A DNA stretch of 64,000 nt, from positions 23,782 to 87,781 of the forward strand of contig NZ_FOQF01000013.1 of assembly GCF_900113655.1 (NCBI RefSeq). Reading direction: 5' to 3'. Both the position numbers and the translations under genes were made by a program. The number at the start of each line of letters is the position of its first letter. Position 1 is the first letter of the stretch. The notes under the pieces are model-generated. The model saw only the letters and a program-made list of their open reading frames with translations, was not told the DNA's origin and searched no databases. Source of the stretch: Pseudobutyrivibrio sp. OR37 (lineage in GTDB: Bacteria > Bacillota > Clostridia > Lachnospirales > Lachnospiraceae). Below are positions 20,988 to 25,895 of this stretch, in pieces.

Positions 20988-22367
20988 ATGTATAAAATCG
21001 ATTTTAACAACAAAATACATGTGCACTTCATAGGAATTGGCGGCATCAGTATGTCTGGTCTTGCTGAAATCCTTCTTGGTGCAGGATTTACTATTTCCGG
21101 CTCTGACCGTGACGCTTCAGACCTTACTAAACATCTTGAAGCTCTCGGCGCCATCGTAAATTATCCACAGGCGGCAGCAAATATCACTGAAGATATCGAC
21201 CTTATCGTTTATACTGCTGCAATTCATGAGGATAACCCAGAGTTCGTAGCTGCCAAGGCTTCTGGCAAGCCAATGCTTACAAGAGCAGAGCTCCTTGGTG
21301 AGATTATGGAAAACTACGCCCGCTCAATCGCTGTAGCAGGCACACATGGCAAGACCACTACCACATCAATGATTAGCCAGATTATACTTGAAACTGCTGA
21401 TGATCCTACTATCTCTGTAGGCGGTATTCTTGATGCCATCCACAGCAATGTTCATGTTGGCGACAGTGATGTTTTCATTACAGAAGCATGTGAGTACACA
21501 AATTCCTACCACTCCTTCTTCCCTAAGTACAACATCATTCTTAACGTAGAGGCAGACCACCTTGATTTCTTCAAGAATCTTGAGAACTATCGCGCTTCCT
21601 TCAAGAAGTTCGCAGGCAACACTGCTGATGACGGTATCTTGATTATTAACAACGAAATTGATGATGTAGCTTACTTTACTGAAGGACTTAAGTGCCAGGT
21701 TATCACTTACTCACTTAACAAGGATGCAGATATTTATCCTTCAGATATTGAATACAACGAAAAGGGCTGTGCAAGCTTTGTACCTGTATATCACGGCAAG
21801 GCTTACGATAAGGTTACCCTTAACGTACCTGGTGTTCACAACATTTCAAACGCTCTTGCAGCCATCGCTTTATCTATCGAGATGGGTATTTCTTACCAGA
21901 ATATACTTGCTGGTCTCGCTAAATTTGGCGGCGCTCACAGACGTTTCGAATACAAGGGTACCTACAACGGTGCCACTGTTATTGATGATTATGCACACCA
22001 CCCAACAGAGATTTCTGCCAGCCTTGCAGCTGCAGCAAACTATCCACATAACAGATTGATTGTTTGCTTCCAGTCTCATACTTACACACGTACACTTAGC
22101 TTCCTTGACGAGTTCGCTCAGGCTCTTAGCGTGGCTGATATAGTATTACTTGCAGATATCTATCCTGCAAGAGAGCCAGACATTTATGGTGTAAGTGCAA
22201 AAGACATTGCCGATAGAATCGAAAAAATAGGAACGGAAGTTCACTATTTAGGCTCTTTTGAGGCTTGCGAAAAATTTTTACAAAAAAATCTTTTGAACAA
22301 CGACTTGTTGATAACTATGGGTGCCGGAGACGTGTATTTAGTAGGAGAGCATCTATTAGCTAACTAG
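20988..22367 (+). CDS. murC: UDP-N-acetylmuramate--L-alanine ligase
   Basis: Adds L-Ala to UDP-MurNAc in cytoplasmic peptidoglycan synthesis. At 459 residues it has family length. Seen: the N-terminal Rossmann start HFIGIGGISMSGLAEIL, the ATP loop VAGTHGKTTTTSMI (near residue 110), the acidic FITEACEY and VEADHLDFF, and HHPTEISASL in the C-terminal domain. AAGAAGG precedes ATG. First of a short plus-strand group; separated from dnaD by its own terminator and DnaA-box arrays. Confidence 0.97.
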   Translation: MYKIDFNNKIHVHFIGIGGISMSGLAEILLGAGFTISGSDRDASDLTKHLEALGAIVNYPQAAANITEDIDLIVYTAAIHEDNPEFVAAKASGKPMLTRAELLGEIMENYARSIAVAGTHGKTTTTSMISQIILETADDPTISVGGILDAIHSNVHVGDSDVFITEACEYTNSYHSFFPKYNIILNVEADHLDFFKNLENYRASFKKFAGNTADDGILIINNEIDDVAYFTEGLKCQVITYSLNKDADIYPSDIEYNEKGCASFVPVYHGKAYDKVTLNVPGVHNISNALAAIALSIEMGISYQNILAGLAKFGGAHRRFEYKGTYNGATVIDDYAHHPTEISASLAAAANYPHNRLIVCFQSHTYTRTLSFLDEFAQALSVADIVLLADIYPAREPDIYGVSAKDIADRIEKIGTEVHYLGSFEACEKFLQKNLLNNDLLITMGAGDVYLVGEHLLAN

Positions 22368-22408
22368 TTTTCCACATTATCCACATTTTTCCACGGATTT
22401 TATTCACG
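22368..22408 (+). promoter_or_regulatory. DnaA-box array 1 (right after murC)
   Basis: Head-to-tail 9-mers on the plus strand: TTTTCCACA (22368-22376), perfect TTATCCACA (22377-22385), TTTTCCACG (22387-22395) and TTATTCACG (22400-22408). The consensus is TTATNCACA. The perfect box and the next two also form most of the stem of the murC terminator. Confidence 0.6.
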
Positions 22409-22429
22409 GAAAAGTGTGGATTTTTTTTT
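22379..22429 (+). terminator. Rho-independent terminator of murC
   Basis: A 14-bp stem: arm 22379-22392 pairs with 22408-22421 with a single G-U, loop of 15 bases, followed directly by nine Ts (22421-22429). Both arms contain DnaA-box-like sequence, so the site may have two functions. Confidence 0.85.
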
Positions 22430-22455
22430 GCCATTTTTTCAAGGGCTCGTAATAT

Positions 22456-22482
22456 TTATCCACATTATCCACATTAGCCACA
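22456..22482 (+). promoter_or_regulatory. DnaA-box array 2 (upstream of dnaD-like gene)
   Basis: Three abutting 9-mers: TTATCCACA (22456-22464), TTATCCACA (22465-22473) and TTAGCCACA (22474-22482). Two are perfect and one differs at a single base. All point toward the dnaD-like gene and end about 60 bp before its -10 element. They are not part of any hairpin I can see. Confidence 0.8.
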
Positions 22483-22519
22483 AACCCTTTATTTACAAGG
22501 CTTCCGGCCCTTCGACCTC

Positions 22520-22548
22520 TTTTCATTTCAATTCTACTTTGCTATAAT
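22520..22548 (+). promoter_or_regulatory. Promoter of the dnaD-dnaC-prs group
   Basis: TTTTCA (22520-22525), 17 bp, then an extended -10 TGCTATAAT (22540-22548). Expected transcription start is about 26 bp before the ATG at 22581. Confidence 0.7.
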
Positions 22549-22580
22549 TTGACTCAGTTTTGAGGGAGAGGATAATAATT

Positions 22581-23684
22581 ATGGCTGACATCATGCTACA
22601 TACCAGTACTAATTCTGGTTTTACTTGCATTTCTAATACTTTTATTGACGATTTCATGAAAGATGCCAATGGAGAGTACGTAAAGATTTACCTTTACTTA
22701 CTGCGTTGTCTAAATCGAGAGGATTATGATTTTTCCATCTCACAGTTGGCGGACTGCTTAGACCACACAGAAAAGGATATCATGCGAGCTTTCACTTATT
22801 GGGAGAAAGTGGGATTGCTCCGTCTTGAGTACTCTGAGGACAATGAACTTACTGGAATCTGTCTAGTGGATGTGAATGGCAAGAAATCATTCACATCAGT
22901 AAACAATTCTGCAGCACCATACGTTGCTATTACTGCTACTATGCCTGCAGTTTCAAATATACCAATACCAGTTCCATTTAAACCAAGCTACACACCAGAC
23001 GAATTGGACGCCTTCAAGGAGGAGGACGAAGTATCAGACTTAATCTTCGCCACACAGACTTACCTTGGACGACCACTTTCAACATCTGATACAAACACCT
23101 TGTTATTCTGGTATGACGGTTTACACATGTCTGTTGATTTAATTCAGTATCTCATCGAGACATGCCTTGATAATGGACACACAAGCTTCCATTACATGGA
23201 TACCGTTGCTAGAAATTGGACTGAAGATGGTATTACCACAGTAGAGGATGCTAGAAAATCATCTAGCGCTCATACAAACACTGTTTACTCTATCAAGAAG
23301 GCTCTTGGCATTGGAAACAGAGAGTTGGTTGAGTCTGAGCTCAACTATATCGACAAATGGGCAAACACCTACATGTTTAGCCTTGATATCATATTAGAGG
23401 CTTGTGAACGCACTATTGCAGCTACAAATAAGCCAAGCTTCAAATATGCAGATTCTATTTTATCAAGCTGGAACAAGGCATCCGTTAGAACACTTGATGA
23501 TATTGCCCTTCTTGATCAGGAATTCACAAAGGCTTCCGTTGCAAGACTCTCTGAGGCAAGATTAAAGGCTGCTTCAAACGCCAATACATCTGCCAGAGCT
23601 AAATCAAACAACAAGTTTTTAAACTTCGAACAGCGTCAGAATTACGACTTTAATGCTTTGGAGAAAAAATTACTTGGAAACTAA
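22581..23684 (+). CDS. DnaD-domain replication initiation protein
   Basis: Probable primosome protein of the DnaD/DnaB(Bsu) family that helps DnaA load the replicative helicase. The N-terminal winged-helix region (residues 15-95: FIDDFMKDANGEYVKIYLYL, then ISQLADCLDHTEKDI) is followed by a linker and two DnaD C-terminal-type helical domains (about 150-225 and 240-300; WTEDGITTVEDAR and SWNKASVRTLDDI are the repeated YxxxIxxxWxxxGI-like motif). ATG at 22581 follows AGGGAGAGG; an earlier TTG in frame is not needed. The tandem DnaD repeat is notable. Followed after 15 bp by the helicase loader gene. Confidence 0.85.
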   Translation: MADIMLHTSTNSGFTCISNTFIDDFMKDANGEYVKIYLYLLRCLNREDYDFSISQLADCLDHTEKDIMRAFTYWEKVGLLRLEYSEDNELTGICLVDVNGKKSFTSVNNSAAPYVAITATMPAVSNIPIPVPFKPSYTPDELDAFKEEDEVSDLIFATQTYLGRPLSTSDTNTLLFWYDGLHMSVDLIQYLIETCLDNGHTSFHYMDTVARNWTEDGITTVEDARKSSSAHTNTVYSIKKALGIGNRELVESELNYIDKWANTYMFSLDIILEACERTIAATNKPSFKYADSILSSWNKASVRTLDDIALLDQEFTKASVARLSEARLKAASNANTSARAKSNNKFLNFEQRQNYDFNALEKKLLGN

Positions 23685-23699
23685 AAGGGAGGTATCTAT

Positions 23700-24689
23700 A
23701 TGGCACTCACTAATGAGCAATATGATGCACTTATGAGAGAATATAATCATAAGCAATCTAGAAACAATCAAATTGTATCTTTCCGTACTAAGGAATTGTA
23801 TTCTGCCGTACCTTCACTCTCTTCACTTGATGAAGAGGTTTCTAAAGTATCTATATCTTCTATCACATCTATCTTTGAAGGCAAGGATGTAGCTTCTGCT
23901 TCTGCCGATTCAAAGATAAAGCTTGAAGCTCTTAAACATAAACGTATCGAGCTCATGAAGGCCGCTGGTTTCCCAGAGGATTATCTTGAGCCTCCATACG
24001 ATTGTCCAGATTGTAAAGACACAGGCTATGTTAATGGAAAGCGCTGCCACTGCTTTAAGCAGGCTGCCATTAATATAGTCTATGGTCAGTCTAATATCAG
24101 CAACATTTTATCAAAAGAAAACTTCGAGGCGTTTGACCTCAATATGTACGATGATGACTATTATGAGCCAGATTCTGAGCTTAGTGCTCGGTCTAATGCT
24201 GAAATAGCACTAGAAAGAGCCACTAATTTTGTGCAGAATTTTAAGCAAAAAGGTGGTAATCTCTTGTTGCTTGGTAAGACAGGATGTGGTAAGACCTTCT
24301 TGTCTAACTGCATCGCAAAAGCTCTACTAGACCAGGGTATCTCGGTTATTTATTTCACATCAAGCGAACTGTTTAGAGTTTTTGAAGAACAAACATTTAA
24401 GAAGAATGCTAACGTAGCAGAGCTTCACAATCATATTTTTGATTGCGATTTATTAATAATCGATGATTTAGGCACAGAGTTCCAGAATTCATTCACTACA
24501 GCCCGCCTATTTCAATGTTTGAACGAAAGATTACTTCGTAACAAATCAACAATTATTTCCACAAATCTCTCTCTAAAAGAATTGAGAGACACTTACAGCG
24601 AACGTATTACTTCACGAGTATTTTCAAACTATGATGTGATTAAGCTCATAGGTAATGATATTCGTATGAAAAAAGTAATATCAAAATAA
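23700..24689 (+). CDS. DnaC/DnaI-type helicase-loader ATPase
   Basis: AAA+ ATPase expected to load the DnaB-type helicase with the adjacent DnaD-like protein. Seen: a Zn-binding cluster CPDCKDTGYVNGKRCHC (from about residue 102), Walker A LGKTGCGKT near 191, Walker B LLIIDDLG near 258 and a sensor-like STNLSLKEL. At 329 residues it is longer than E. coli DnaC (245) and close to B. subtilis DnaI (311). GGGAGGT is 7-8 bp before ATG. The pairing with a dnaD-like gene supports a chromosomal, not phage, role. Confidence 0.87.
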   Translation: MALTNEQYDALMREYNHKQSRNNQIVSFRTKELYSAVPSLSSLDEEVSKVSISSITSIFEGKDVASASADSKIKLEALKHKRIELMKAAGFPEDYLEPPYDCPDCKDTGYVNGKRCHCFKQAAINIVYGQSNISNILSKENFEAFDLNMYDDDYYEPDSELSARSNAEIALERATNFVQNFKQKGGNLLLLGKTGCGKTFLSNCIAKALLDQGISVIYFTSSELFRVFEEQTFKKNANVAELHNHIFDCDLLIIDDLGTEFQNSFTTARLFQCLNERLLRNKSTIISTNLSLKELRDTYSERITSRVFSNYDVIKLIGNDIRMKKVISK

Positions 24690-24716: not shown

Positions 24717-25895
24717 ATGCCAAATAATGAAATCGTGTTGGAAAACACACCACCTATGGCTGAGCTTGGATTAATTCCACACAAGAGCTGTACAGCCATC
24801 TCGGAGCGAGTTAATGACTACCTTCTTAAGTGGAGACAGGAGCGCAAAAGCGACCAGTCTATCATCACTTTAGCAGGTTACCGTAGTGATTCCTACATTG
24901 TTGATGCTGATTGCCCACGTTTCGGTTCAGGCGAAGCAAAGGGTATTATTAAACAGTCTGTTCGTGGACTTGATTTATACATCCTTGTTGATGTAACAAA
25001 TTACAGCCTCACTTACACTGTTTGTGGCCATGAGAACCACATGAGTCCAGATGATATTTTCTGTGACCTTAAGCGTATCATCGCTGCAGCTATGGGAAAA
25101 GCAAAGCGTATCACTGTTATTATTCCATTCCTTTATGAAGGAAGACAGCATCGTAGAAGTGCTCGTGAATCCCTTGATTGTGCTATGGCACTTCAGGAAC
25201 TCGTTAACATGGGTGTTGATAACATCATCACATTTGATGCTCACGACCCACGTGTTCAGAATGCGATTCCTCTTCACAGCTTTGAGACAGTTTCACCTAC
25301 ATACCAGTTCCTTAAGGGCATCTTTAAGAACTGCAAGGACTTAAAGCTTGATAATGATAACCTTATGATTATTTCACCTGATGAAGGTGGTACAAAGCGT
25401 GCCGTATATATGGCATCTGTTTTAGGTGTTAATGTTGGTATGTTCTACAAGCGTCGTGATTACAGCCGTATCGTAGATGGACGTAATCCTATCGTCGCTC
25501 ACGAATTCCTTGGAAATGATGTTGCTGGTAAGGACGTAATCATCGTTGATGATATGATTTCTTCAGGCGAGTCTATGATAGATGTTGCTACAGAGCTTAA
25601 GAAGCGTAATGCTAATCGTATCTTCGTAGTAGCTACATTCGGACTCTTCACAAATGGTATGGCTAAATTCGATAAGGCTGTTGAAGACGGTATCATTTAC
25701 CGCGTTGTTACAACAAACCTTACATACCTTCCAGAAGAAGTTCAGAATAAGGACTACTTCATCAAGTGCGATATGTCTAAGTACATCGCTTACATCATCG
25801 ATACTCTTAATCATGAGTGCTCAATTTCAGAGCTTCTCAATCCATACGGACGTATCGAAAAGCTTATTACTCGTTACAAAAACGGCGAATATTAA
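24717..25895 (+). CDS. prs: Ribose-phosphate pyrophosphokinase, long form
   Basis: Makes PRPP from ribose 5-phosphate and ATP for nucleotide, His and Trp synthesis. Seen: the PRPP-binding signature VIIVDDMISSGES near residue 275, the ATP-binding region YEGRQHRRSARESLDCA, and FDAHDPRVQNAIP matching the FDLHxxQIQGFF region. The 392 residues exceed the usual 310-320 by about 70, mainly at both ends and in the region 210-250. CAAGGAG precedes the ATG. Last gene of this plus-strand group, running into the hairpin repeat at 25896. Confidence 0.9.
   Translation: MPNNEIVLENTPPMAELGLIPHKSCTAISERVNDYLLKWRQERKSDQSIITLAGYRSDSYIVDADCPRFGSGEAKGIIKQSVRGLDLYILVDVTNYSLTYTVCGHENHMSPDDIFCDLKRIIAAAMGKAKRITVIIPFLYEGRQHRRSARESLDCAMALQELVNMGVDNIITFDAHDPRVQNAIPLHSFETVSPTYQFLKGIFKNCKDLKLDNDNLMIISPDEGGTKRAVYMASVLGVNVGMFYKRRDYSRIVDGRNPIVAHEFLGNDVAGKDVIIVDDMISSGESMIDVATELKKRNANRIFVVATFGLFTNGMAKFDKAVEDGIIYRVVTTNLTYLPEEVQNKDYFIKCDMSKYIAYIIDTLNHECSISELLNPYGRIEKLITRYKNGEY

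Follow-up and report, generated by a model that had tools for sequence, protein, structure and literature searches.

The locus raises the question of why boxes for the replication initiator DnaA should stand in tandem ahead of genes for helicase loading, and whether they act on the promoter of those genes. To our knowledge little is known in bacteria about how the supply of helicase loader is matched to the initiator, and the direct targets of DnaA have been mapped mainly in model species. The analysed stretch (the window) covers 64,000 nucleotides of a contig of Pseudobutyrivibrio sp. OR37. An earlier note on this DNA had described two head-to-tail runs of boxes upstream of a dnaD-like and a dnaC/dnaI-like gene and had proposed either promoter control or titration of DnaA. 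The features are as follows.

20988-22367, forward strand: murC, UDP-N-acetylmuramate--L-alanine ligase, the upstream neighbour (TIGR01082, 459.9 bits, cut-off 335.1)
22368-22385, forward strand: array 1, two abutting boxes, TTTTCCACA at 22368-22376 and TTATCCACA at 22377-22385, directly 3′ of the murC stop codon
22379-22429, forward strand: predicted intrinsic terminator of murC, 14-bp stem (22379-22392 with 22408-22421) and T-run at 22421-22429
22456-22473, forward strand: array 2, two perfect abutting boxes, TTATCCACA at 22456-22464 and again at 22465-22473
22474-22482, forward strand: weaker third box TTAGCCACA, in register with array 2
22483-22503, forward strand: imperfect inverted repeat AACCC..AAGG, lying between array 2 and the promoter and conserved (mean identity 0.876 over 22483-22506)
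22520-22548, forward strand: predicted dnaD promoter, -35 TTTTCA at 22520-22525, 17 bp, extended -10 TG-C-TATAAT with its hexamer at 22543-22548
22581-23684, forward strand: dnaD-like gene, DnaB_2/DnaD domain, 367 aa (PF07261, 142.5 bits; TIGR01446, 88.4 bits)
23700-24689, forward strand: dnaC/dnaI-like AAA+ ATPase of the PRK06835 family, a predicted helicase loader, 329 aa (NF005304, 378 bits, cut-off 215)
24717-25895, forward strand: prs-like PRPP synthetase (NF005299, 567.5 bits, cut-off 327)

The profile matches to PF07261, TIGR01446 and NF005304 bear out the two genes that had been placed downstream of the arrays; the DnaI model gives the dnaC/dnaI-like protein 57.6 bits, which is under its cut-off of 228. 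The loader protein is 95% identical to its counterpart on a named contig of Pseudobutyrivibrio (Lachnospiraceae). The prs-like gene, on which the earlier note was silent, follows dnaC after a gap of 27 bp and is likely in one operon with dnaD and dnaC. Among our named loci, which are the best 80 of 566 relatives and hence a non-random set, all 79 with more than 1200 bp of downstream sequence have a prs-like gene less than 400 bp from dnaC on the same strand. As had been described, the boxes form two head-to-tail runs; there are five on the forward strand, abutting within each array, and three of them are perfect: array 1 has one of these and array 2 the other two. With all five boxes inside 115 bp and none off by more than one mismatch, the site fits the definition of a DnaA-box cluster outside oriC, namely at least three boxes at an average distance below 100 bp (quoted in the part of PMC7561715 used here). 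In the genome of 3.56 Mb, single TTATNCACA boxes number 207 as against 184 for a reversed-pattern control, with no clear enrichment, and therefore clustering alone was taken as evidence. Same-strand pairs of TTATNCACA no more than 30 bp apart number 4 genome-wide (1 in the reversed control), the sole abutting one being at the dnaD locus, and when up to 2 mismatches over the 18-mer are allowed the count of abutting pairs is 9, as against 1 in the reversed control, with 3 of the 9 at the dnaD locus and 6 elsewhere. The best abutting pair outside the dnaD locus has 1 mismatch (C23:16299); a cluster in that part of the same genome (C23:16266-16316) holds three minus-strand boxes, two of which abut with one mismatch. 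A search of 22200-22800 against Rfam gave no match up to an E-value of 1. The array site is genuine, and it is larger than had been described.

Within the genus, the abutting pair TTNTCCACATTNTCCACA occurs 56 times in 25 whole genomes of Pseudobutyrivibrio (the window's own included), and 47 of the 56 occurrences are upstream of dnaD. By this pattern both arrays are found in 22 of the 25 genomes and one array in 3; it is found in 5 of 16 other genomes of the order, where 3 of its 6 places are near the loader gene. On aligning 29 genus loci, 17 of the 18 columns of array 1 were invariant and both its boxes were perfect in 27 loci, the window being one of the two exceptions, while array 2 had a mean column identity of 0.944 and was absent in one locus. 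In 22 of the 29 the third 9-mer has YCACA at its end, so that relatives retain mainly this 3′ half. Over the same loci, mean identity is 0.905 in 22534-22550 (the -10 region), 0.891 at the 3′ end of murC and 0.984 in the 3′ arm of the terminator, and drops to 0.632 in the terminator arm and loop and to 0.641 between the two arrays. In the locus that is without array 2 (L008, from an 87% complete draft, G023), most of the inverted repeat is gone as well in one clean gap, which is either a natural deletion or an assembly fault.

Beyond the genus, the 80 named loci have abutting pairs no more than 400 bp from dnaD in 61 cases, and all 116 of 116 pairs are on the dnaD strand, with 3 pairs in the remaining 632 kb. 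An even draw of 146 genomes from the order Lachnospirales, with a loader match in 140, left 134 usable genomes after the removal of G038, four truncated loci (L240, L250, L253 and L062) and one with 58 bp upstream (L239). Abutting pairs were present in 64 of these, again with every pair (84 of 84) on the dnaD strand; as controls, the other 396 kb contain 5 pairs, and one of 2980 dinucleotide shuffles has a pair. It may be noted that the 400-bp limit overlooks more distant pairs, for instance in G042, and that in the order, named and phylum sets dnaD was taken to be the longest frame that ends close to the start of the loader gene, without gene-by-gene confirmation; in our first set of 61 genomes it was identified by sequence match. 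By family label the pairs are found in 13 of 15 genomes of f1, 13 of 13 of f22, 8 of 8 of f24 and 9 of 13 in both f8 and f5, more rarely in f2 (2 of 11) and f16 (3 of 7), and are absent in the sampled genomes of f11 (0 of 13), f17 (0 of 13), f19 (0 of 11) and f13 (0 of 3). For the phylum, 75 of 149 genomes had a match, two of them within the order; 18 of the other 73 were sampled and 15 were usable (L319, L326 and L329 were dropped), and none of these 15 genomes outside the order has abutting pairs. The expectation in the earlier note that the boxes are kept in relatives with the same gene order holds for 110 of 153 murC-adjacent loci, 43 being without abutting pairs. Where murC is non-adjacent or out of view, abutting boxes occur in 15 of 61 loci, and the upstream flank is short in several of these 15. 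As murC linkage and boxes share ancestry, their association is no proof that murC matters. The site is deeply conserved and probably regulatory. Five loci with no abutting boxes (L108, L140, L150, L152 and L153) carry TTATCCACA, a gap of about 14 bp and TTATCTACA near the dnaD promoter.

The extended -10 that had been placed at 22540 is there, TGC TATAAT starting at that position, with the weak -35-like TTTTCA at 22520. A promoter scan gave 13 promoter-like sites as compared to 11.9 in shuffles, i.e. no excess, and so the predicted promoter rests on its conservation. In the order and named sets together, an extended -10 lies no more than 130 bp downstream of the last pair in 70 of 125 tandem loci and is absent in 55; in shuffled spacers it turns up in 174 of 4950. 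Across 99 loci, of which 93 have distinct sequences and 6 repeat another, the spacing between the extended -10 and the last box of the array nearer the promoter is confined to 49-50, 57-60, 66-70, 77-80, 89, 97-100 and 115-121 bp with none between, so that it moves mostly in steps of about 10 bp (49, 59, 69, 79, 89, 99). These array-to-promoter steps of about 10 bp are new in this analysis. The 6 loci at 115-121 bp are a poor fit to the 10-bp comb; among them is L008, measured from array 1 as array 2 is missing there. For 34 spacers left after clustering at 60% identity, R is 0.71 at a period of 10 bp, 0.61 at 10.5 and 0.39 at 9, and none of 20,000 uniform draws reached the observed R at 10 or 10.5 bp. 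The control distances are unphased (R of 0.09 from the last box to the ATG and 0.13 from the -10 to the ATG). Two-box arrays taken alone (n=30) give R of 0.71 at 10 bp and 0.37 at 9, and loci with an exact TATAAT (n=25) give 0.74 at 10 bp. A dnaD tree gave 21 contrasts in which the loci differ by more than 3 bp, with a mean cosine at 10 bp of 0.52 for the last box (p 0.0001) and 0.62 for the first box (reached in 0 of 50,000). The last-box steps in these contrasts are 7-13 bp (12 cases), 17-24 bp (5), 31-32 bp (2), 49 and 70 bp. Steps of exactly 9 bp, which could be the gain or loss of a 9-bp box, make up 4 of the 21 last-box and 6 of the 21 first-box contrasts. Stricter clustering leaves only 7 two-box spacers at 50% identity (R of 0.56 at 9, 0.66 at 10 and 0.73 at 10.5 bp) and then 4 at 45% (0.72, 0.62 and 0.74), and 9 bp is then no longer separable from 10. 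The boxes thus have a conserved placement relative to the predicted promoter, which is a mark of DnaA-regulated promoters. As to the inverted repeat, related forms (AACCCTTGATTTTACTGGGTT) are present at dnaD promoters of other Lachnospiraceae and also stand alone as hairpins, for instance at C42:19522 in the genome of the window (G000) and beside a tRNA-Arg gene in another locus (L335); the search pattern used did not match the variant of the window itself, and the related hairpin was found elsewhere.

The boxes have a single orientation and are phased to the promoter, which combines a poor -35 with an extended -10, and an array lies upstream of the core promoter; together these features point to promoter control. 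We therefore consider it fairly probable that DnaA on the tandem arrays controls the predicted dnaD promoter from upstream, most likely by activating it; the preference for activation over repression is a judgement from geometry alone. With a transcription start assumed 7 nt downstream of the -10, array 2 would lie at about -99 to -73, where it could keep DnaA on the same helical face and in touch with RNA polymerase, and array 1 may add further DnaA, possibly via looping. More available DnaA would then give more DnaD, helicase loader and PRPP synthetase, and the supply of loader and of nucleotide precursors would thereby track the initiator. The predicted geometry is such that a shift of 5 bp would break control and one of 10 bp would be tolerated.

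DnaA could also bind the arrays and repress the dnaD promoter, as a homeostatic brake like that at the B. subtilis dnaA-dnaN promoter, and we regard this as rather unlikely. It has precedent, since in B. subtilis sda is activated but ywlC, vpr, yyzF-yydD, trmE-noc and ywcI-sacT are repressed (according to the sections of PMC4447404 consulted), and dnaA-dnaN is repressed too (in the portion of PMC13220808 consulted). Arrays 1 and 2 could moreover make a repressing loop, as the spacing between them has a best period of 11.1 bp (n=28, R 0.61; p 0.0008 with uniform and 0.0002 with smoothed draws), the scan being exploratory and post hoc. However, in the 99 loci the last box stops at least 49 bp short of the -10, with no overlap between them, and a poor -35 with an extended -10 suits activation better.

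Next in standing, and improbable to our mind, is that the arrays act as a sink or remodelling site for DnaA, like the B. subtilis clusters or E. coli datA and DARS, with any promoter control incidental. The consensus boxes are dense, and in 7 of the 8 long-contig genomes examined that bear the tandem boxes (G012, G057, G074, G081, G129, G158 and G166, the exception being G003) it is the half on the origin side that contains the locus, as reckoned from rounded sizes and contigs assumed circular. Initiation is early in a B. subtilis strain from which six clusters are missing (in the part of the review PMC5295017 available to us), yet the same part of that review assigns the clusters no significant role in initiation. 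A sink needs neither a single orientation to dnaD nor phasing to its promoter; the box-to-promoter distance is phased and the box-to-ATG distance is not, and for this reason promoter control is favoured over a pure sink. Of the two roles proposed earlier, promoter control thus comes out strengthened, and titration may still take place. No constrained position relative to oriC was seen among the few genomes with long contigs. In those bearing the pair, the distance between dnaA and the loader gene is 45 kb (G057), 108 kb (G129), 112 kb (G012), 179 kb (G158), 249 kb (G074), 470 kb (G081), about 0.83 Mb if the contig is circular (G166, rounded size) and about 1.05 Mb (G003, with two dnaA-like matches on that contig). 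Two genomes were left out of this count, G010 (a draft of Butyrivibrio fibrisolvens 16/4) and G033, which by our rule has no abutting pair; G062 and G149 are also without abutting pairs. A distance that varies so widely suits a local role and counts against a position-bound site such as datA, and a sink effect may coexist with promoter control. In G003, a near-complete member of the genus, the dnaA-like matches are at C1:65556 and C1:1000956, and their open frames are 473 and 465 aa long. A reading of the arrays as the origin itself was ruled out, as dnaA is on another contig (C36) than the dnaD locus (C70).

The binder of the arrays, we infer from sequence, is DnaA. The genome encodes a DnaA whose ATPase and box-binding domains score over the family cut-offs and whose translation contains GGRDHST, which we take to be the box-recognition signature of DnaA. 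The abutting spacing is absent among the consensus boxes at the dnaA locus of this genome, which leaves some room for a protein other than DnaA that reads the 9-mers. Against such a reader, which we hold to be very improbable, the same box recurs around dnaA in 6 copies (C36:38229-38587), and the 9-mer conforms to TTWTNCACA, the E. coli consensus (as quoted in the stated part of PMC7561715).

The second box of array 1 overlaps the 5′ arm of the murC terminator hairpin, which had gone unnoticed in the earlier note; it pairs with a downstream TGTGGAT arm that is followed by the T-run, and of the two arrays only array 1 has such a stable stem and T-run as an intrinsic terminator has. The hairpin has a free energy of -19.7 kcal/mol (z -5.0), and an equally stable one was formed in 0 of 200 shuffles. 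(A separate hairpin scan with loops restricted to 3-8 nt does not have this terminator in its output.) Array 1 commonly starts directly 3′ of the murC stop codon across loci, and the design is common to 52 of 80 loci that have array 1 at this place (8 of 4000 mononucleotide shuffles); the other 28 keep array 1 and fail the terminator test, L114, L124 and L133 having a similar hairpin by eye. That the repeats are kept for this RNA hairpin, with no protein involved, is the least credible explanation, for despite the pairing of box 2 in those 52 loci, 28 retain the array without passing the test, and box 1 of array 1 and the whole of array 2 lie outside the stem and are highly conserved. The hairpin alone does not explain array 1, since box 1 is outside the stem and is equally conserved. 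With DnaA control of the promoter as the preferred reading, one box of array 1 would double as a terminator arm and insulate dnaD from murC.

A wider proposal, which is tentative and carries more doubt than confidence, is that throughout Lachnospirales DnaA may be a direct, helix-phased activator of the operon for DnaD, loader and PRPP synthetase in a feed-forward arrangement by which the initiator brings about production of the loading machinery that acts after it, the same 9-mer serving as a terminator arm that shields the operon from murC. The conserved site would then point to one specific operon in a major gut and rumen group. The nearest idea is in the Caulobacter DnaA regulon, where the dnaB helicase gene and dnaQ have predicted boxes (Hottes et al. 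2005, according to the part of PMC8203912 used) and DnaA is tied to transcription of helicase machinery. There, however, it is the helicase gene and here the helicase-loading genes, and the phylum is another. DnaA-regulated promoters of B. subtilis likewise have boxes in promoter regions, with DnaA as a transcription factor, but their targets are others and their layout differs from the abutting twin arrays here. In the parts of the sources consulted, dnaD, dnaB-dnaI and murC are absent from the 20 strongest in vitro DnaA regions of B. subtilis (PMC4447404) and from eight direct gene sets (PMC8203912), and dnaD and dnaB-dnaI are not named among the B. subtilis direct targets (PMC11019786, PMC12371093, PMC13220808, PMC5295017 and PMC7561715). 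Among the open-access titles and abstract openings listed, none deals with DnaA boxes at dnaD or helicase-loader promoters. The B. subtilis DnaA-box clusters are alike in being clusters outside oriC in Bacillota, but theirs is a joint effect on initiation timing (in the section of PMC5295017 consulted), whereas here it is orientation and phase at one promoter. E. coli datA and DARS also have several DnaA boxes outside oriC; datA works with IHF and DARS2 with IHF and Fis, and both affect the nucleotide state of DnaA (same section of PMC5295017). The position in the genome, unlike theirs, is not conserved here.

Some members of the genus have a second box cluster, found in G009 (locus L338, contig C23) and G005 (L340, C13), the two resembling each other on visual comparison. 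The frame downstream of it in L338 contains GKGGVGKS, a motif that we take to be that known from Mrp/NBP35 ATPases. This second cluster is possibly another DnaA target.
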